DNA from: Thiohalobacter sp.
GTDB taxonomy: Bacteria; Pseudomonadota; Gammaproteobacteria; Thiohalobacterales; Thiohalobacteraceae
DNA length: 43,836 bases
Reading direction: 5' to 3'
NCBI RefSeq assembly: GCF_027000115.1
Contig: NZ_JALTON010000044.1
Coordinates: forward strand, 1 to 43,836
Part shown: in pieces, positions 30,723 through 39,246 of the stretch
Layout: every line of letters begins with the position of its first letter
How positions within the stretch are numbered: position 1 is the stretch's first letter
Notes under the pieces: model-generated
What the model saw: the letters and a program-made list of their open reading frames with translations, nothing else
The model's database searches: none
Told to the model about the DNA's origin: nothing
Translations under genes and position numbers: made by a program

Positions 30723-31029
30723 GGTCATGATCCTTGTCGTTGAAGAACGGTACGGCCCAATTATGGCCCGTCGGCCCGACGCGTGGCCAGCCTTGTCGAA
30801 CCGGACCGGTTGGAACTTGCCGGCTGTATACCCGGGAAACGAACCGTCGTGCCGGAAAGGCGGCAGCAACAGCCGCGCTGGCCGCAGCGGGCATCGACAT
30901 TGATCCGGCCGGTGTTACCAGCCTGCGAGTCGGAAGATCCGTTTGGTTGCATGCCCGCTTGGGTTGCCTCGCGACTCGAATAATTTGGGCGCACATTTGG
31001 TCGTAGAGTGAAAACGACAGGAGGTGCCC
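30723..31029. other. Intergenic region ahead of IS3 remnant
   Basis: These 307 bases hold no convincing gene. They should contain the promoter of the minus-strand gene starting at 30722 and the left edge of the IS3-type element. I could not see terminal inverted repeats that fix the boundary. From about 30970 the base composition becomes less GC-rich (AATAATTTGGG), consistent with a junction. Confidence 0.5.
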
Positions 31030-31362
31030 ATGGCCAGGCAATCGTCGATGAAACATTGCTCGGCGAAGCACAAGCAGGAGGTGGTGTTGCGCCTGTTGCG
31101 CGGCGATAGCCTGGATGCAATGAGCCGGCAAACCGGCCAGCCGGTGGTGGTGCTCTCGGCCTGGCGGGATGAGTTTCTGGAAGCGGGGCGGTCAGTGTTG
31201 AAGCGCCGCACGGACGATCCAAAGGTGGCCGCCCTGGAACAGGAACTCAAGCGCGCCAAGCGCCTCGTCGGGGACATGATGATGGACAAGGAGCTGCTGG
31301 AGATGCGCATCGCCCGGCACGAGGGCGAGTTCCCTTTTCCGAAGCGGAGGTCGAATCCGTGA
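31030..31362 (+). CDS. IS3-family transposase OrfA
   Basis: A 110-residue OrfA-type transposase subunit with an N-terminal helix-turn-helix (HKQEVVLRLLRGDSLDAMSRQTGQPVVVLSAW, shown here only to identify it; key part LRLLRGDSL). A leucine-zipper-like region follows (VAALEQELKRAKRLVGDMM, then DKELLEMRI). AGGAGG precedes the ATG at 31030. The stop overlaps the GTG start of the damaged orfB. With orfB broken, the element cannot transpose by itself. Confidence 0.82.
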   Translation: MARQSSMKHCSAKHKQEVVLRLLRGDSLDAMSRQTGQPVVVLSAWRDEFLEAGRSVLKRRTDDPKVAALEQELKRAKRLVGDMMMDKELLEMRIARHEGEFPFPKRRSNP

Positions 31363-31775: not shown

Positions 31776-32567
31776 ATGGGAAAAAGCATTCATTGGCTTG
31801 CAGCCGCCTCGTTTGTCACAGGTATGGCGGCGTCGGTGCCTGCATCTGCGGTCGTGTACGAATTTTCGTTCACCGGCAAGTACACCCTGCTCGACAATGC
31901 CGGCAACTTCATGGATCAGCAGAGTATCAGCTCGACGCTGCAGTACGACGACGCGGCAGGCAGTGGATTCTCAGCCAATCTCACCATCGCCAATTTCGAT
32001 ACCTTCGGTGCGACGGCGACGATTCATGATATTTCGCTGCTGCGTGTATCCGGCACCAATTACATCATTGGTAACATGCTGGGGGACTGGAACAACAACT
32101 TCGGCGTGCCCATCTCGATGGTCTGGGATGCCACCGGGCTATTCAATGCCATCGATATTGGCCTGCAGGTCGGCGACGTCATCAGCGGCAGTTCACTGAA
32201 GCGCAATGGCGTGGTTATTGCCGACGTAGGGAGTGCGCTGCCTGCCTCGGATTCGCTGGGGCTCAACCAGCAGGGGCCTGCGCCGCTGGCTGTCAGCACG
32301 TTGAATACTGCGACGCTTTGCACGCCCGGTGTGGATTGCATGAATAATCCAGTGACTGGTGGCGCACCCTTCTCCGACGACGGTATCGGCGGTTCACCGA
32401 TGATCGATGGCCCCTTTTTGGGCCTTAATGTGAATTTCGACATCGGCAGTGGCAACAGCCTCAAAGTGACCGCGGTGAGTGCGGTGCCCTTGCCCGGGGC
32501 GTTCTGGTTGTTTGGCTCAGGATTGTTCGGTCTGATTGGCGCGGCACGACGGTGGCGCGGCTGCTGA
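31776..32567 (+). CDS. VPLPA-CTERM sorted exported protein 1
   Basis: A 263-residue exported protein with a signal peptide (cleavage after about PASA, residue 25) and a low-charge beta-rich body rich in Asn, Gly, Ser and Thr. The C-terminal sorting signal is VPLPGAFWLFGSGLFGLIG followed by a basic tail, i.e. a VPLPA variant of PEP-CTERM. Such proteins are cut by an exosortase at the inner membrane and released to the surface or to exopolysaccharide. AAGGAGGG precedes the start. A REP element follows 30 nt after the stop. No enzymatic domain recognised. Confidence 0.82.
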   Translation: MGKSIHWLAAASFVTGMAASVPASAVVYEFSFTGKYTLLDNAGNFMDQQSISSTLQYDDAAGSGFSANLTIANFDTFGATATIHDISLLRVSGTNYIIGNMLGDWNNNFGVPISMVWDATGLFNAIDIGLQVGDVISGSSLKRNGVVIADVGSALPASDSLGLNQQGPAPLAVSTLNTATLCTPGVDCMNNPVTGGAPFSDDGIGGSPMIDGPFLGLNVNFDIGSGNSLKVTAVSAVPLPGAFWLFGSGLFGLIGAARRWRGC

Positions 32568-32597
32568 CGCACCTGCGTAAGCGTACGCAGTGAATTC

Positions 32598-32690
32598 GTA
32601 GGAGGGGCAAAGGCGCGCAGCGACGTGCCCATCACATCCCGTGACCATCATGATGGGCACGGCCCTTCGGGCCTTTGCCCATCCTGCCAG
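32598..32690. repeat. Double REP/BIME-like palindrome (copy 2)
   Basis: Starts with GTAG (32598-32601), then a left unit reading GGGCAAAGGC...GACGTGCCCATCA and an inverted right unit TGATGGGCACGG...CCTTTGCCCATCC, separated by about 15 nt. Each unit is itself a hairpin and the two units are inverted copies. The segment 32621-32689 is nearly identical to 35651-35719, with two or so differences. The layout matches REP pairs mobilised by RAYT-type Y1 transposases; no such transposase gene is in this window. Confidence 0.8.
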
Positions 32691-32881
32691 GTCCTCTTCC
32701 GCGATATCGCGGCAGCGTAGATGGTGTCGATCAGTTGTTCGTTGGCGTTGTCTTTCACGCGAAAGCCCCGCTCACTCAACAGTCTGCAGGCGCGTTTCAA
32801 GCATTATAGTGACTTGTCCGGCAGCGTGGCAGAGGCACCCCGAGCGGCTATTGCCTGCGTGGGTGGGGGCAGATGTGAAGT
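32691..32881. other. Intergenic DNA with possible decayed coding sequence
   Basis: No intact gene. On the minus strand a short frame reads RGFRVKDNANEQLIDTIYAA before running into the REP palindrome. It lacks a start and a recognisable family, so it may be a fragment of a lost gene. A TATAAT on the minus strand near 32806-32811 has no gene to serve. Confidence 0.35.
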
Positions 32882-33135
32882 CTAACCCCGCTGACGCAGG
32901 GTTTTCGTGGCCATTCGGGGTTCACTGCACGGGTACTCCGGATCCCAGGCAAGGTCCCGCCGCACCGCCCGCTGCATGATGCTGTCAATCGCGTTCCAGC
33001 TCAGCCCCAGGCGCCATCTCGCCGCGTTGGCCCGGTCCTCCATCAGACGGTCGATCACCATCGCCTCGAACAGCGCCGTAAACCCCGAGCCCGGTTTCGC
33101 CCGGGGAACCGCGATATGCTTGATCCCGTGCTCCG
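32882..33135 (-). pseudogene. ISL3-family transposase fragment
   Basis: Reading the minus strand from about 33135, the frame gives EHGIKHIAVPRAKPGSGFTA, LFEAMVIDRLME and RLGLSWNAIDSIMQRAVRR, which match the conserved middle of ISL3 transposases (EHG...VPWA.PGS.FT.LFE, R.LGLSW....IM.RAV). A residue is missing in ...NAARWRLGLSW, the frame then becomes unrelated, and it stops at 32882. Both ends of the gene are absent. It is a dead relic. Confidence 0.7.
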
Positions 33136-33241
33136 CGGTGCTTCGCCCATGGCATTATCCGTAACCTGTTGTACAGCCCGCGGTTTCTCAGCTCCGCTGC
33201 GCTAAATCACCCGTGCTGGGGGACTGAAAAAGAGATGTTTT

Positions 33242-33267
33242 AAAAACTGGCCACCTTAAAGGTGGCC
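33242..33267 (-). terminator. Rho-independent terminator of the multicopper oxidase operon
   Basis: On the minus strand GGCCACC-TTTAA-GGTGGCC (33267-33249) is followed by AGTTTTTA, a proper U-run. It lies about 40 nt beyond the stop of the second oxidase gene, marking the operon end. Confidence 0.85.
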
Positions 33268-33278
33268 GGAAAACTTCG

Positions 33279-33306
33279 GCAGAACTTGTTGTTCTGCATG
33301 TTTTTT
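33279..33306 (+). terminator. Second hairpin with T-run at the oxidase operon end
   Basis: GCAGAAC-TTGTT-GTTCTGC (33279-33297) followed by ATGTTTTTT on the plus strand. It would stop plus-strand transcription coming from the VPLPA/IS region before it enters the oxidase genes antisense. On the minus strand it is an extra hairpin within the oxidase 3' end. Confidence 0.7.
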
Positions 33307-34328
33307 CAGACCACCGTCACCGTGGTTGCCACCGAGCCCAGCAGCGTGGCGCGGCGAATGTCGTAATAGTCCACGGTGGCCGCATACTGGCCCGATGACG
33401 GCATGGTGACCAGCAGGTCGTAACGCTCGCCGGCGCATACCAGTTGCTCGGTTGCCGTATAGGACTGAGCGAGGGGCCGCCCATCCGAGGCAATGACCTC
33501 GAACGGCAGGCCGCCGAGACGCACGATGGCGGGCATGTAACTGGTGCCATTGACCCGGATCAGCACTGTCTGTCCGGCGCCGGCCGATACGGCAACGGTG
33601 GAATCCGTGCCTGCATTGGCGCCATCCCGGCCATTGATCATGAAGTAATCGGGGCGATACCGCACAGTCCCAGAACCACTGACCATCTGACCATGCCAGG
33701 AGCTGTCGAAGGTGCCCAGTTGCCAGACGTATTCCTTGTCGAAGGTCGGACCGCCGGCCCAGGCCTCCGTGGTGCTGCCATTGGGCGGACGGATGATAAC
33801 GGTACCGTACATGCCCATTTCCATGTGCAATACCGTATCGACATGGCAGTGATACATGTAGGTGCCGGCGTGTGGCGCGGTGAAGGTGTAGGTGTAGGAG
33901 CTGCCCAGGCTGGGTGCATCCCCTACCCGGCCAAAGCCGCCGCCACCACCCATGCCACCGCCAACGTATCCGGAGGTACTGGGTACGCCGTCGTTGGCCT
34001 GATCCACGTCAAGACCATGGAAGTGAATGCTGTGCGGCATCATGGAACTCAGGGTGATCTCCACCAGTTCTCCTTCATTGGCCTCGAACACCGGGCCGGC
34101 CAGGGCACGGTCTCCGTTGAAGCCGCTGCCGAAATACCAGGTGCGAATGGACGCGCCATTGGCCATGGTCAGGCGGCCCATCATGCTGACGCCGACGCTG
34201 GTCGGTGCCGCCTGATAGGCAAAGGTACGGCCACCGGCAGTTCCACCACCAGTGCCGCCACCGCCACCGCCGCCCATGCCGCCACCGCGACGGCGCATCA
34301 TCAGTTTGTCTTTCAGTACATTGATCAT
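33306..34328 (-). CDS. Cupredoxin/multicopper oxidase-like subunit B (copper motifs only in domain 1)
   Basis: A 340-residue two-domain cupredoxin protein. A glycine-rich N-terminus (about residues 15-34) precedes domain 1, which carries H99-x-x-H102-x-H104-G (PHSIHFHG) and H160-C161-H162...H168...M173 (YHCHVDTVLHMEMGM). These are ligands of a type 1 copper and half of a trinuclear cluster. Domain 2 is homologous but has no histidine motifs: the equivalent block reads SYMPAIVRLGGLPFEVI. A second glycine-rich loop lies at about 119-137. No Sec or Tat signal is seen. GAGGAGAG precedes the ATG. It follows the Tat-bearing subunit by 46 nt. Confidence 0.85.
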   Translation of the reverse strand: MINVLKDKLMMRRRGGGMGGGGGGGTGGGTAGGRTFAYQAAPTSVGVSMMGRLTMANGASIRTWYFGSGFNGDRALAGPVFEANEGELVEITLSSMMPHSIHFHGLDVDQANDGVPSTSGYVGGGMGGGGGFGRVGDAPSLGSSYTYTFTAPHAGTYMYHCHVDTVLHMEMGMYGTVIIRPPNGSTTEAWAGGPTFDKEYVWQLGTFDSSWHGQMVSGSGTVRYRPDYFMINGRDGANAGTDSTVAVSAGAGQTVLIRVNGTSYMPAIVRLGGLPFEVIASDGRPLAQSYTATEQLVCAGERYDLLVTMPSSGQYAATVDYYDIRRATLLGSVATTVTVV

Positions 34329-34374
34329 GTGTGCTCTCCTCTATCCTTTGTCTTATTCAGCCAGGCAGTCCCTT

Positions 34375-35319
34375 TCAGGACGCGCTCATGACGATCAGTG
34401 CGCCACCATAGGGGTACAGATACACACCGTTGGCGGTAACGCCCGGCACGTAATGCGTATGCAGCGGGTAAGCGCCCGGCTGCACCACCGGCAGGATCAC
34501 ATCCACGCACATGTCGCGCTCGACCTGCGTGGTGTCCTTCTCGATGGCCGTGGTTTCAGGCACCCGATTGCGGCTGATGACATTCACGTGATAGCCGTGA
34601 AAGTGTTGAGGATAGGTGATGCAGCCGGTATTGATGAAACGGATGGCGACATCTTCACCGACATTCATGGCCACCAGCGTGTCGGCGTCCGATTTCGTGT
34701 CGGGGTAGCTCAGACCATTCACGAAATAATAGTTGGGTTCATAGTTGGCCATATCGTAACTGCCGCCCGCCGCGACCGCGGCATTGAGCCGGTCGTCCAG
34801 TTCATTCAACACCAGCGTGTACTGGCGGTCGAAGGCCGGACCGCCGGTGTACAGAGTGCTGGAACCATCGGTCGGCATCACCACCAGCGGGCCGGACAGA
34901 CCCATGGCCTTGCCGATTTCACCGTTCAGGTCGTCGGTATAGAAATAACTGCCCGCGGCCGGCGCGGTGAAACTGTAGGTGCGGGAGCCGCCGGGCGAAA
35001 CCGCGGCCGTGTTGCTCATCACCCCGGGAATGGCCAGATTGATGTCGCGGTCCAGGTTGTTGGTCACCGTGATGTTGACCGTATCCCCCTCCCGGACCAC
35101 CAGGCCGGAAGTCAGGGCGCCCGGTCCGCTGCCGGCGGTATCGCGGAATTGCCAGACATAGATCGACGCCCCATCGACCATGGTCTTGTAGGTGCCTTCG
35201 GCCACCAGATCGACGGCAACGGTGCCCGCCACGGCCTGGCGGGGCGCAAGCGCCGTCAGCCCGGAAAAGGCGAAAGCGGTGGAGCCGGCCAGTCCGGCCA
35301 GAAAAGTACGTCTTTTCAT
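34375..35319 (-). CDS. Tat-exported cupredoxin/multicopper oxidase-like subunit A (copper motifs only in domain 2)
   Basis: A 314-residue two-domain cupredoxin with a Tat signal, MKRRTFLAGLAGSTAFAFSG, cleaved after about QAVA. Domain 1 has no ligands: where the type 1 motif should be it reads GSYFYTDDLNGEIGKAMGL. Domain 2 has H239-F-H241-G (YPQHFHGYHVNVI) and H287-T-H289 (YPLHTHYVPG), i.e. T2/T3-type histidines, but the type 1 cysteine is replaced by Thr288. The ATG at 35319 is chosen because GGAGG lies 6 nt upstream; the ATG at 35325 touches it. It is the first gene of the operon and complements subunit B. Confidence 0.87.
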   Translation of the reverse strand: MKRRTFLAGLAGSTAFAFSGLTALAPRQAVAGTVAVDLVAEGTYKTMVDGASIYVWQFRDTAGSGPGALTSGLVVREGDTVNITVTNNLDRDINLAIPGVMSNTAAVSPGGSRTYSFTAPAAGSYFYTDDLNGEIGKAMGLSGPLVVMPTDGSSTLYTGGPAFDRQYTLVLNELDDRLNAAVAAGGSYDMANYEPNYYFVNGLSYPDTKSDADTLVAMNVGEDVAIRFINTGCITYPQHFHGYHVNVISRNRVPETTAIEKDTTQVERDMCVDVILPVVQPGAYPLHTHYVPGVTANGVYLYPYGGALIVMSAS

Positions 35320-35647
35320 GATCATCCTCCAGTAATGGGTTGCAAGGGCAAACCCCGGCCGCGGATCGGCGGACGGTTGGCCCGCTTAGCATGGATTGTT
35401 GTTGTGTGGTGGTATCCCGGAAAACCATTGTCCGGGAGCGGGTCTGTTGCAGGCCCTGATGAATGAAAGAGTCAGAAGAAGGCAAGCCAAAAAAACAACT
35501 GGCCGCATCGAACAGGCGGCGGGTAAATCCCGAGTGAACTGGTTCCCTGTCCCGATCACGCAGTCCTGCTGCGTAATACATGGCATAAAAGATAGTGGAT
35601 CCCCTCTATATAATATTTATTCAGTCGTCTCACAATTGCCTGAACAT
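35320..35647 (-). promoter_or_regulatory. Long upstream region of the oxidase operon
   Basis: About 330 nt with no convincing gene. On the minus strand an AT-rich island (around 35595-35630) contains TTGTGA and, 17 bp on, TATATA, a possible sigma-70 promoter giving a leader of some 260 nt. The leader contains a hairpin CGCAG/CTGCG near 35565-35580 and a second inverted pair CCCGGACAATGG/CCATTGTCCGGG-like segment near 35415-35440 (TCCCGGAAAACCATTGTCCGGGA on the plus strand, partly matching). Copper-responsive control is possible but no known operator was recognised. Confidence 0.4.
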
Positions 35648-35718
35648 GGGCGACGTGCCCATCACATCCCGTGACCGTCATGATGGGCACGGCCCTTCGG
35701 GCCTTTGCCCATCCTACC
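35648..35718. repeat. REP/BIME-like palindrome (copy 3, left unit truncated)
   Basis: Same 69-nt core as copy 2 (CGACGTGCCCATCACATCCC through to the CCTTTGCCCATCCTACC end). On the minus strand the intact unit begins GGTAGGATGGGCAAAGG, i.e. the GTAG tetranucleotide followed by the palindrome, as in GTAG-REPs. The left unit keeps only its inner half. It lies about 120 nt beyond the stop of the first DUF1566 gene. Confidence 0.8.
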
Positions 35719-35840
35719 AAGTCTGGTCGGGTTTGTCCGCCGACGAGACTTTACCCGGCAGGTCCATCACGGCCAGTGCTCCTTCTCCCCCAGAAGGCAA
35801 GGCGGCCTGTCGAACCCCGCGGAAGGGCCGAGTCACCCGC

Positions 35841-36632
35841 TCAGCGGGTTCTACGTCTCACCCCTGCCCCAAACAGACCCATCAGGCCGGTGCCGAACAG
35901 CCAGACGGCAGCGGGCAGCGGAACGGCACTGACATCGCCAGGGCGCACGGCCCATGCATACCGGGTAAAACTCTTGAGGTATGTGAGCTGGTTGCCATCG
36001 TAGAAACCGAAGTCCCACGCGCGGTTGGTGTTGGAGGCGTATTCCAGACCGGACCAATAGTTGCTGGGCTGGATGTTGGCAAAGGGGCCGGTGTTGGTCA
36101 AACAGTAATCGGGTGCAGTGCAGCCCGTCGTGTTACCGCTCGTATCGTACCAGCCGGTATTGCCCAAGGTGTTGTAGAACAGGTGCGCCATCTCGCTTGC
36201 CGTGCTCCCTGGATGAGCCGAACCCGGCGCGGTGATGTTATAACCGCTATCCGTGCGGCCATCGTAGGCGAAGTTATCGTCGAATGCTGAACCATTGATC
36301 GGACTCAGAGTTGGCAGCCGCCAATCGCTATAGCCCAGGTAACTGACGGCGTTCATGTTTGCAATCCAGGTGTTAGCGGTATCCCACGCCATGGTGCCGG
36401 CATTAATACCTGCTGTACCAAAGGCTTCCGTCGCCGCCAGGTTGGCATCCGCCAGCCAGGTGATGTCCAGAACGGTGTCGTAATAGGCATCGGCGACGCC
36501 GTCGCCGGTCAGATCGCGCGGCAGCAGCGTCGTCTCCCAGGTGCCCTGGCCCGAAACCGGTGCCGCTTCGAGCGTCGCAGTTGCAAAGGCCAATGCACTG
36601 GCGCAGATCGCGCCCCACAGATGGGTCTTCAT
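35841..36632 (-). CDS. VPLPA-CTERM protein 2 with DUF1566 (Lcl-like) domain
   Basis: A 263-residue exported protein. The signal peptide ends at about LEAAP. The body is a DUF1566/Lcl-type lectin-like domain, with DITWLADANLAATEAFG, NTWIANMNAVSYLGYSDWRLPTL (key part YSDWRLPTL) and a conserved YWSGLEYASNTNRAWDF block. The C-terminus is VPLPAAVWLFGTGLMGLFG followed by RRRTR, the VPLPA sorting signal. GAGGAG precedes the ATG. It is a paralogue of the gene at 37195-38043 and has a strong sigma-54 promoter match 90 nt upstream. Confidence 0.88.
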   Translation of the reverse strand: MKTHLWGAICASALAFATATLEAAPVSGQGTWETTLLPRDLTGDGVADAYYDTVLDITWLADANLAATEAFGTAGINAGTMAWDTANTWIANMNAVSYLGYSDWRLPTLSPINGSAFDDNFAYDGRTDSGYNITAPGSAHPGSTASEMAHLFYNTLGNTGWYDTSGNTTGCTAPDYCLTNTGPFANIQPSNYWSGLEYASNTNRAWDFGFYDGNQLTYLKSFTRYAWAVRPGDVSAVPLPAAVWLFGTGLMGLFGAGVRRRTR

Positions 36633-36695
36633 GATTGTGTCTCCTCGACGCTTCCGCGGGGCGCGGGATCCTGTTCGCTCCGTTCAGGAAAGTAA

Positions 36696-36762
36696 CCCCG
36701 ATTTTTTCAGAGGAAATGAGCAAGAACCATTCCAAAGGAGGGTGGCGAAGCACAAATCGGGG
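36696..36762. repeat. 9-bp inverted repeat bracketing a sigma-54 promoter
   Basis: CCCCGATTT (36696-36704) and AAATCGGGG (36754-36762) are perfect inverted copies. The sigma-54 site at 36719-36734 lies between them, and the downstream arm would sit at about +4 to +12 of the transcript. This could be an operator pair or a chance repeat. Confidence 0.5.
36719..36734 (-). promoter_or_regulatory. Sigma-54 promoter of the VPLPA/DUF1566 gene
   Basis: On the minus strand TGGAATG-GTTC-TTGCT matches the RpoN consensus TGGCACG-N4-TTGCW at 10 of 12 fixed positions, with the essential GG-N10-GC. Transcription would start near 36708 and leave a leader of about 75 nt. RpoN control of PEP-CTERM genes through the PrsK/PrsR system is known in other bacteria. 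Confidence 0.7.
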
Positions 36763-37194
36763 ATATTCAGACACTTTTCCGGATGTTCAGGGGCTGTTCA
36801 CCGAAGTGCCTCTGGTCATATGTCAATTCTATCGACATGCGCTATGCCGCATGTGGTCTGGCTAACTATCTGGTTTTCAAGGATGGCTCAGGGCGACGCG
36901 CCAACCCAGAGGGCTGTCGGATTATTTGACACGCATATACCAGACAAACGTAAGCGGAGGTGCCGCCGTTATCTGGAGTCGTTGTTGCGCCATGCCGGGC
37001 AAGGCGTTCGGAGGTTCATTAAAGGGTGCGGGCCGGTGCGGAGGCCTGTAGTCGTTTGTTTCCGGACATTTGCCTGGTTGGAGGGGCGGCTCGGACTTCA
37101 CGATCTGGCGGCCAGTAGAGACATGCGGTACCGGAACAACGCGGATCGTGTGCCCCACAGGGTGCAGGATGGCCGACCGGGGCCGGCGCGCAGG
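36763..37194. other. Intergenic region between the two DUF1566 genes
   Basis: About 430 nt with no supported gene. It should hold the enhancer site for the sigma-54 promoter and the 3' end of the upstream DUF1566 transcript. Small open frames occur on both strands but have no ribosome-binding site or recognisable similarity. Confidence 0.5.
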
Positions 37195-38043
37195 TCATTC
37201 TCTTTGCCAGCGTTCCAAGCGGACCCTTTTTCCGCTGCGGCCCAGGCCGACCAGTCCGGCCAAGCCACCGAAGAACAACCATGCGGAGGCCGGCAGCGGT
37301 ACCACCACATCGCCGTCGCGCACCGCCCAGACCCGAAGCAGGGCGGCCTTGTCAGTGGTGCCCTGGCCACCGTCGCTGAAACCGAAGCTCCAGGCGCGCG
37401 TGGTGTCCATGGTGTATTCCACGCCTGTCCAGTAGCCGCCGGCAACCAGGCCGGCAAAGGGGCCGCTGTTCAGGAGCCCCCAGTCCGGCTGCGGCGCGTC
37501 GTCGCAGGTCTGCGGATTGCCGTCGCTGCCTTCAGGTGGGCAGTAGCCCCGGTTCGCGAGGTTCACGTAGTACATGTGCCCCATTTCGGAGACGGGATTG
37601 CCGTTGGGGTCACGCCAGCCGCCGTCGCTGCCATCGGTGGTCGTCGGTGCGTAACCGACCGGTGTGCTTGCGTTGGTGGTGAAAACATTGCTCATGTTGG
37701 CGGGATCGCCACTGCCATCGAGAGGGCCGACCGAGGGCAGCCGCCAGTCCGAAAAACCCAGGTAGGCAGCGTTGTTCATGGCAGCGATCCAGTTGCCGGC
37801 CGTGTTCCAGTCCATGCGTCCGTCCGCCGCGACGCCGCTTGCGCCAAAGGTCTGGTTCGCGGCCAGGTTTGCGTCTGCGATCCAGGTGATATCCAGCGCG
37901 GTATCGTAGTAGGCTTGGTAGTCATTGCCTCCCGGTGTCTCGGGCAGGCGCCCGAGCAGCGCCGCCTGGGCGGTGAAAGAAAGAAGCGGAGCGGTCAGGA
38001 CGAGGCGGGCGCACCACGCACCCGCAGTGCAGGATGGCTTCAT
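37195..38043 (-). CDS. VPLPA-like-CTERM protein 3 with DUF1566 (Lcl-like) domain
   Basis: A 282-residue exported protein, paralogous to the one at 35841. The signal peptide ends near TAQA. The DUF1566 blocks are DITWIADANLAANQTFG, GNWIAAMNNAAYLGFSDWRL and GGYWTGVEYTMDTTRAWSF. The C-terminal signal is VPLPASAWLFFGGLAGLVG with a long basic tail. GGGGAG precedes the ATG. Four cysteines in the loop around CPPEGSDGNPQTC may form disulfides. Unlike its paralogue it has a sigma-70-type promoter. Confidence 0.87.
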   Translation of the reverse strand: MKPSCTAGAWCARLVLTAPLLSFTAQAALLGRLPETPGGNDYQAYYDTALDITWIADANLAANQTFGASGVAADGRMDWNTAGNWIAAMNNAAYLGFSDWRLPSVGPLDGSGDPANMSNVFTTNASTPVGYAPTTTDGSDGGWRDPNGNPVSEMGHMYYVNLANRGYCPPEGSDGNPQTCDDAPQPDWGLLNSGPFAGLVAGGYWTGVEYTMDTTRAWSFGFSDGGQGTTDKAALLRVWAVRDGDVVVPLPASAWLFFGGLAGLVGLGRSGKRVRLERWQRE

Positions 38044-38169
38044 GGTCTACTCCCCCCGGGCTCAGGCATCCCGTGGCACCAGGCGGTACCACGCCGCCTT
38101 GCTCGGCCTGTTCTGTCCCTTCGCCCGTTCTTCCGTACGCGTGGAACTTTCCTGTGCGCGTCAGAGTAA

Positions 38170-38198
38170 AAAATAGAAACGACCCTGACAGGCGTCAA
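38170..38198 (-). promoter_or_regulatory. Sigma-70 promoter of VPLPA protein 3
   Basis: On the minus strand TTGACG (38198-38193), 17 bp, TATTTT (38175-38170). Start of transcription near 38163, leader about 120 nt. No other feature was seen in the remaining part of the 38044-38439 gap, which separates this gene from VPLPA protein 4. Confidence 0.6.
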
Positions 38199-38439
38199 GT
38201 TCATCAGGGAATTGGCGGGTGCCGATGCGGCTGTGCGGGCTGGGGTGATTTGTCTGCCGCCATGGCCCCAGCCGGCCGGTGGACGCATCCACTGAAGAAC
38301 AGTGGCACTCCCCAGAGAGGTAACGGGGAATTCGCTTGAGGAGCGGCGCCCTGTTACTCGATGGTTGAAGACTGTGGCACGCGCAGAATGATCGCGCTTT
38401 CCCCGGATCCCCTATGTGACCGGGGGGAAGGGTCCCTTG

Positions 38440-39153
38440 TCAGCTTTTCCTGAGTCTGGTCATTCCCAGAAGCCCCAGTGCCCCGGAGGCAAACAGCCAG
38501 GCGGCAGCCGGAACAGGGACAACTGCCGCTTGTATCAGGTACAGGCCGTCGGCACCTCCGGCGGCCATGTTGGTGCCATCCAGAATCCAGTCGCCTCCCA
38601 GGCGCGTGTAACCCAGGCCGTTGTTGACGGCATAATCAAGGGTGGTAATGGTGCCATCCGCCAGGAATACGCTGTCGAAGAGATCGTCGTCGTACAGGAT
38701 CAACCAGTCCTTCAGGTATACAGGGTTGGTGCAGTTGGGATCGCATATCTGCGCACCGTTGCCCGCCGTCGTGGCGGGTGTATCGAACCGGAGCGGTACT
38801 CCCGACGCATCGAACAGGATGCCTTGCTCCAGGTTGTTTGCCCCGGTTCCATCTCCCTGCGGCGGAAAATCATCCACGCCAAGTGTGAATCGGGCATTCC
38901 CGGCAGTGGTGTTCAGAATTGCATCGAATGAAACGAAATCGGGTGAGGAGAACAACACCAGATTGTTGGGCGCAATGGCGGCATCGTCGATCTCGAATAT
39001 CGCCGAACCCGATACCTGGTAGTTGGAAAACAGGTTGTTACCCGCTGAAACCTGTTCGTAGAAAGTGATGCTGTAGGTCGCCGCACCCACTGTCGCAGAG
39101 GCCAGCAGGGAAGCCAATGAGCCCAAAACAGCCCCGAGGGATGAGCGCTTCAT
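38440..39153 (-). CDS. VPLPA-like-CTERM sorted exported protein 4
   Basis: A 237-residue exported protein beginning MKRSSLGAVLGSLASLLASA, with cleavage near VGAA. The body is beta-rich, with SITFYEQVSAGNNLFSNYQV and FTLGVDDFPPQGDGTGANN, resembling the generic PEP-CTERM ectodomains that lack a named enzyme fold. The C-terminal signal is VPVPAAAWLFASGALGLLG plus RLRKS. GGAGG before the ATG at 39153 fixes the start; a longer open frame to 39246 has no ribosome-binding site. Confidence 0.85.
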   Translation of the reverse strand: MKRSSLGAVLGSLASLLASATVGAATYSITFYEQVSAGNNLFSNYQVSGSAIFEIDDAAIAPNNLVLFSSPDFVSFDAILNTTAGNARFTLGVDDFPPQGDGTGANNLEQGILFDASGVPLRFDTPATTAGNGAQICDPNCTNPVYLKDWLILYDDDLFDSVFLADGTITTLDYAVNNGLGYTRLGGDWILDGTNMAAGGADGLYLIQAAVVPVPAAAWLFASGALGLLGMTRLRKS

Positions 39154-39218
39154 GTTGCCTCCGACTCGTTTTTTGCCATCTTTTTCGCCTTTGTGCGGTA
39201 ACCCGCTGCTTTGTCCGG

Positions 39219-39246
39219 AATATATCAGTCGCAAGCCCGAAGTCAA
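39219..39246 (-). promoter_or_regulatory. Sigma-70 promoter of VPLPA protein 4
   Basis: On the minus strand TTGACT (39246-39241), 16 bp, TATATT (39224-39219). It is a good match in both hexamers and lies 66 nt before the start codon. Confidence 0.65.

Follow-up and report, generated by a model that had tools for sequence, protein, structure and literature searches.

Two neighbouring genes, A and B, at positions 33306-35319 of a 43,836-nucleotide stretch of Thiohalobacter sp. DNA (contig NZ_JALTON010000044.1; the whole stretch is the window referred to below) very probably encode an obligate heteromeric periplasmic multicopper oxidase, in which each of the two chains has lost the copper ligands that the other retains, with B probably exported on A. 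The earlier note had put forward an obligate A-B heteromer on the strength of the ligand motifs, and this reading is now supported by the complementary ligands, the co-occurrence of the genes, structure models and the pattern of export signals. Formation of the complex itself is inferred, and there are no biochemical data.

Both genes lie on the minus strand, as do all the features located below. Gene A (34375-35319) encodes a two-domain cupredoxin chain with a Tat signal, running from the ATG at 35319, the start taken in the earlier note, to a stop at 34375, and has a GGAGG ribosome-binding site (35326-35330) 6 nt upstream of the ATG. Residues of A are numbered here from a further ATG upstream, at 35325, so that the numbers given previously, counted from 35319, are 2 lower. 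Gene B (33306-34328) encodes a two-domain cupredoxin chain without a signal peptide. It follows A after a gap of 46 nt, starting with the ATG at 34328 and ending with a stop at 33306; an AGGAG ribosome-binding site (34336-34340) lies 7 nt before the ATG. Pfam agrees with the view that these two adjacent frames are homologous two-domain cupredoxins, as A and B both match Cu-oxidase_3 and Cu-oxidase_2, over both halves and above the Pfam cut-offs. In the PDB, both have their best matches in 3g5w and 2zwn, which belong to the type C two-domain enzymes.

Within A the ligands are confined to domain 2. Alignment identified two trinuclear-cluster histidines in HFHG (residues 241-244; 34594-34605) and two more in HTH (residues 289-291; 34453-34461), giving H241, H243, H289 and H291, and the position of the HCH motif in domain 1 is occupied by TDDLNGEIG (34912-34938), which provides no ligands. 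In B the division is the reverse. Domain 1 contains HSIHFHG (residues 99-105; 34014-34034), with a type 1 His and two trinuclear-cluster His, and HCH...H...M (residues 160-173; 33810-33851), with two further trinuclear His and the Cys, His and Met of the type 1 site. The type 1 ligands of B are H99, C161, H168 and M173, and its trinuclear-cluster ligands are H102, H104, H160 and H162. Domain 2 of B lacks all four trinuclear His, and the type 1 site is likewise absent from it in the alignment. The two chains together make up one complete laccase-type set, with four His from domain 2 of A and the domain 1 set from B, as had been claimed from the window alone.

When eight B proteins, and likewise seven A proteins, of related genomes are aligned, all of the retained ligands are invariant. 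The axial Met of B is M173, also invariant, and M171 is replaced by Gln or Arg in some B proteins. A joint alignment of 143 sequences contained 57 with the domain 1 set only (B-type), 51 with the domain 2 set only (A-type), 32 with both and 3 with neither, so the one-sided patterns noticed in the window hold across both types. In the loci described below, 48 of 51 B proteins have 0 of the 4 domain-2 His, and the A proteins retain only 0-2 of the 8 domain-1 ligands. Judged from the sequences, a reciprocal pattern arising by chance is excluded, because the ligands of the retained domain are conserved in the 57 B-type and 51 A-type proteins and the opposite domain has been emptied. In three loci (L029, L094 and L111) domain 2 of A has HCH for HxH, with a lone Cys at the position of the type 1 Cys.

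In the mechanism that we propose, the trinuclear cluster would form where domain 2 of A meets domain 1 of B, each providing four His. The type 1 copper, held by two His, Cys and Met, would sit beside the cluster in domain 1 of B and accept electrons from the substrate, which would then pass through the His-Cys-His bridge to the cluster and on to O2, giving water. Domain 1 of A and domain 2 of B would have a structural role only. The heteromer would be obligatory because neither A nor B alone could form the trinuclear site, and for the same division of ligands a functional homotrimer would be unlikely. The oxidase chemistry would follow from the ligand set, O2 reduction and copper content being inferred.

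It is conceivable, although we consider it very improbable, that A and B form a heteromer whose interface, like that of a copper nitrite reductase, serves another chemistry, for instance the reduction of nitrite or the storage of copper. NirK shares the fold, and A and B do give weak matches to Cu_nitrite_red, but these reach 45-51 bits and fall far below the cut-off of 296. The type 2 site of NirK is made of three His. The A-B interface, in contrast, has eight, in HxH and HxH/HCH motifs that are the trinuclear signature of an oxidase; B has HxxHxHG and HCH and A has HxH and HxH, so the three-His criterion is not met.

We scanned 84,980 species genomes for the pair and took loci from the best 80 of 364 relatives. 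Intact adjacent A-B pairs were present in at least 43 of these loci, and all were reciprocal. Among the matches listed they came from Pseudomonadota, Planctomycetota, Bacteroidota and Paenibacillus, the finer taxa among these matches including Thiohalobacter, Thiogranum, Sedimenticola, Thiohalomonas, Chromatiales, Lysobacterales, Nitrosomonas and Sulfuricellaceae. The gene order in the scanned loci is mostly A-B and the gaps mostly <70 nt. Seven more loci comprise truncations at contig ends, a broken A (L043), an A under the score cut-off (L109) and, at a contig end, B in tandem only (L048), so that the solo cases in the scanned loci are accounted for by contig edges, the broken gene or the cut-off. 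We also observed an additional B copy beside the pair in one locus (L039, in the order B-A-B), which, like the tandem B-B of L048, would fit an AB2 ring. The pair in L093, filed under Anaerolineales, is nearly identical to a Chromatiales pair (L085) and probably reflects a binning error.

The broken A of L043 raises the question of whether A and B could be copies of a homotrimeric two-domain laccase that have decayed or been mis-sequenced. This explanation is refuted by the retention of the pattern in at least 43 loci, by its presence in single-contig genomes (G004, G141 and G319) and by long conservation on both sides, and we attach practically no weight to it. A frame error, a pseudogene or a misassembly is ruled out by the same conserved loci and single-contig genomes.

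The window's class was searched in 369 genomes, with strong A matches found in 22, strong B matches in 22 and both in 21. In both genomes with only one of the genes a contig edge cuts the locus, and in one other case (G046) the A gene was found not next to B but on a different contig from two B genes. A gene that regularly occurs alone with conserved ligands would have refuted the heteromer; this was sought in these genomes and not found. The distance matrices of A and B were also closely correlated (r = 0.954 for 41 pairs, the best of 1000 permutations reaching 0.27), with shared species history contributing to this value. In its own genome the window pair has no other two-domain multicopper oxidase able to complete A or B, the only multicopper oxidase frames being of 546 and 620 aa. 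These observations bear on the possibility that A and B are separate proteins of one operon, with B a blue copper electron carrier and A a degenerate or copper-binding partner or chaperone. B alone does have a full type 1 site, and a complex has not been shown. An electron carrier has no need of trinuclear His, however, yet the four in B and the four in A are invariant across phyla, and A was not found without B in the 369 genomes, save for the exception at a contig end. We therefore regard separate functions as unlikely and favour the obligate A-B oxidase.

In some loci A and B lie in the same frame, parted by stops and a few codons. By reading the stops as glycine we obtained continuous A-linker-B chains, two of which were modelled with AlphaFold2 using 16 paired rows each. 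The pTM was 0.82 for the fusion from L036, which is close to the window pair, and 0.88 for that from L115. By our own reasoning, two halves without a defined mutual orientation would hardly give a pTM above about 0.5. The order of the domains in both models is A1-A2-B1-B2. Among the matches listed by Foldseek, the six-domain rings factor V, MnxG and ceruloplasmin ranked above all two- and three-domain enzymes for both models. Among the superpositions listed by VIA-align, residues 1-647 of the L115 model superposed on residues 2-697 of ceruloplasmin, domains 1-4, with a Z score of 24.3 and 3.8 Å over 515 residues, and 3g5w was matched, with Z scores of 26-27, by the A part of one model and by the B part of the other. 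The ring arrangement of consecutive domains is thus met for four of the six domains in the L115 model, with the covalent link as a caveat. The read-through linker biases the models towards contact and the geometry is resolved at the level of domains only, without His-His distances. At that level, and with that bias, the modelled contact between A2 and B1 is the contact between domains 2 and 3 of a six-domain ring. The six-domain proteins of prokaryotes and algae have a trinuclear site between domains 2 and 3, which in the prokaryotic proteins is their only one (PMC3600357). The finding that would have counted against the heteromer, domain 2 of A and domain 1 of B lying apart, was not met, as the linked models of high pTM place them adjacent to one another.

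The hetero-hexamer that the earlier note had in mind does not hold up as the natural assembly. A ring of three chains cannot alternate A and B, and one active site per heterotrimer is therefore to be expected. We infer that a heterotrimer with one site, either A2B, AB2 or A-B with a third chain, is likelier than a hetero-hexamer. No third, ligand-free partner for the window pair was found in the window or in its own genome. Support for a third chain closing the ring comes from related B-A-X operons with a ligand-free third chain. This B3-A3-X arrangement occurs in 12 loci (L030, L031 and L139-L148), with all three genes in view in ten. B3 has domain 1 ligands only and A3 domain 2 ligands only, the same division as in A-B. 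The third gene, X, encodes a ligand-free cupredoxin chain that continues into large extracellular tails of TSP3/dockerin or Ig/cadherin-like segments, with lengths of up to 2,755 residues, and is sister to A3 in the tree (support 98/93). Where the start is in view, the N-termini of B3, A3 and X are Sec-type as judged by eye.

Gene A begins with a Tat signal peptide (MKRRTFLAGLAG...RQAVA; 35227-35319), recognised from its sequence and from the same pattern across the family. The N-terminus of B (34230-34328) is Gly/Met-rich and without a hydrophobic segment, the best 14-residue mean hydropathy being 0.81, and the AGGAG ahead of its ATG speaks for this start, and thereby for the absence of a signal. 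In 40 of 45 pairs outside Paenibacillus a Tat signal was observed on A, with B lacking any signal. A is Sec-type in L027, L076 and the three Paenibacillus loci, and there B has a signal of its own. Signals were assigned by rules on motifs and hydropathy, and the Sec cases cover only about three lineages. The Tat system transports folded proteins and the Sec system does not. The simplest reading of this asymmetry between A and B is that the two assemble in the cytoplasm and that B, without a signal, is exported folded on A; B is thus probably a Tat hitchhiker, the dependence of its export on A being inferred. Hitchhiker complexes such as the NiFe hydrogenases have a Tat signal on one subunit and none on the partner, and A and B are alike in this respect. 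To our knowledge, Tat hitchhiking has not been described for any multicopper oxidase. According to a title cited in PMC8456105, CueO is not completely folded when it crosses the Tat pore, a difficulty for the hitchhiking reading.

The origin of the pair can be considered from its single-chain relatives. Among L055-L092 are type C-like enzymes from Paenibacillus and Cohnella that carry all 12 ligands on one chain and are about 37-43% identical to B, and split pairs are also found in Paenibacillus (L078, L083 and L089). In a tree built without the ligand columns the main A clade (support 100/100) lies apart from the main B clade (100/97), and the A and B chains of Paenibacillus (100 each) nest among the single-chain enzymes of the same bacteria. 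AU tests against a single origin gave p = 0.039 for the A chains and 0.078 for the B chains, and domain 2 of Paenibacillus B keeps an eroded HTFHMN (HxFHMN) remnant. Taken together, the tests, the nesting and the remnant point to a second, younger split in Paenibacillus, and on this sequence evidence an independent second origin is likely, though not proven. The best reading of the family would be that a type C two-domain laccase was duplicated and that the two copies then lost complementary sets of ligands. Open reading frames upstream of the Cohnella and Paenibacillus single-chain enzymes were also considered as ligand-free partners and set aside; the one sequence that was read, in L075, has two plastocyanin-like motifs, and such frames, which stand beside many of these oxidases, probably encode electron-transfer proteins, perhaps a partner of the oxidase or a copper donor.

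We looked for a neighbourhood conserved across the whole family and found none. CusB and CusA directly follow the pair in three loci (L098, L105 and L115); in others L037 has a MerR regulator near the pair and L044 a heavy-metal P-type ATPase. Most neighbourhoods, including that in the window, have no copper genes and the neighbours are mostly unrelated. Our best guess at the role of A-B, made from the neighbours in some genomes, is Cu(I) oxidation or copper detoxification; for the loci with CusB/CusA, P-type ATPase or MerR neighbours, detoxification through Cu(I) oxidation is possible, at somewhat less than an even chance. In the window the pair lies amid four secreted proteins whose C-termini are of PEP-CTERM or VPLPA-like type (31776-39246), of which only that at 37195-38043 clears the curated VPLPA cut-off, and these surroundings say little on the function of A-B. 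A 74-nt direct repeat, 96% identical, flanks the pair (32620-32693 and 35650-35723) and may be a trace of the segment's insertion or recombination. A short open reading frame at 31024-31362 has a weak IS3-transposase-like match far below the family cut-off.

Published descriptions divide two-domain oxidases into types A, B and C and present them as homotrimers (PMC3192119, PMC13151041). The cluster sits where domain 1 of one chain meets domain 2 of its neighbour, and in the type C plan four trinuclear His and the type 1 site belong to domain 1, with a further four His in domain 2 (PMC13151041). A description of a heteromeric two-domain laccase was not found in the literature searched, of which our coverage was partial, and this absence is not proof of novelty. 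Since A or B alone resembles a broken multicopper oxidase, screens that require a full ligand set per chain would miss the family. The pair is a clear example of paralogs that depend on one another, each having lost half of one active site, and it suggests Tat hitchhiking for a copper oxidase.

A-B resembles the type C enzymes, namely the blue copper oxidase of Nitrosomonas europaea (3g5w), the metagenomic laccase 2zwn and 3gdc, in having two cupredoxin domains and the same ligand plan. Unlike these homotrimers, in which a single chain carries all the ligands, the ligands of A-B are split over two gene products. A has those of domain 2 only and B those of domain 1 only, so that the pair, which we infer to work like a type C laccase, fails the one-chain criterion. 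The single-chain enzymes of Paenibacillus and Cohnella are the closest complete relatives of A-B, and are unsplit. In common with ceruloplasmin, factor V/VIII and MnxG, the A-B ring would have six domains and at most one trinuclear site, at the place of the A2-B1 contact. However, A-B has two domains per chain on separate chains, where ceruloplasmin and MnxG have one fused six-domain chain, and the type 1 copper, found in even-numbered domains in the six-domain proteins, would occupy an odd-numbered position, domain 1 of B. On balance we lean towards the view that these operons encode a class of obligate heteromers that form an unfused, ceruloplasmin-like ring with a single site, made of A-B and a third chain (in the B-A-X operons the dedicated, ligand-free X), with at least two origins, the catalytic subunit B being a Tat hitchhiker in the Tat-dependent lineage. 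Six-domain oxidases are thought to derive from a fusion of three copies followed by loss of the redundant sites (PMC3600357); the A-B operons show site loss and division of labour without the fusion, and may represent a living intermediate.
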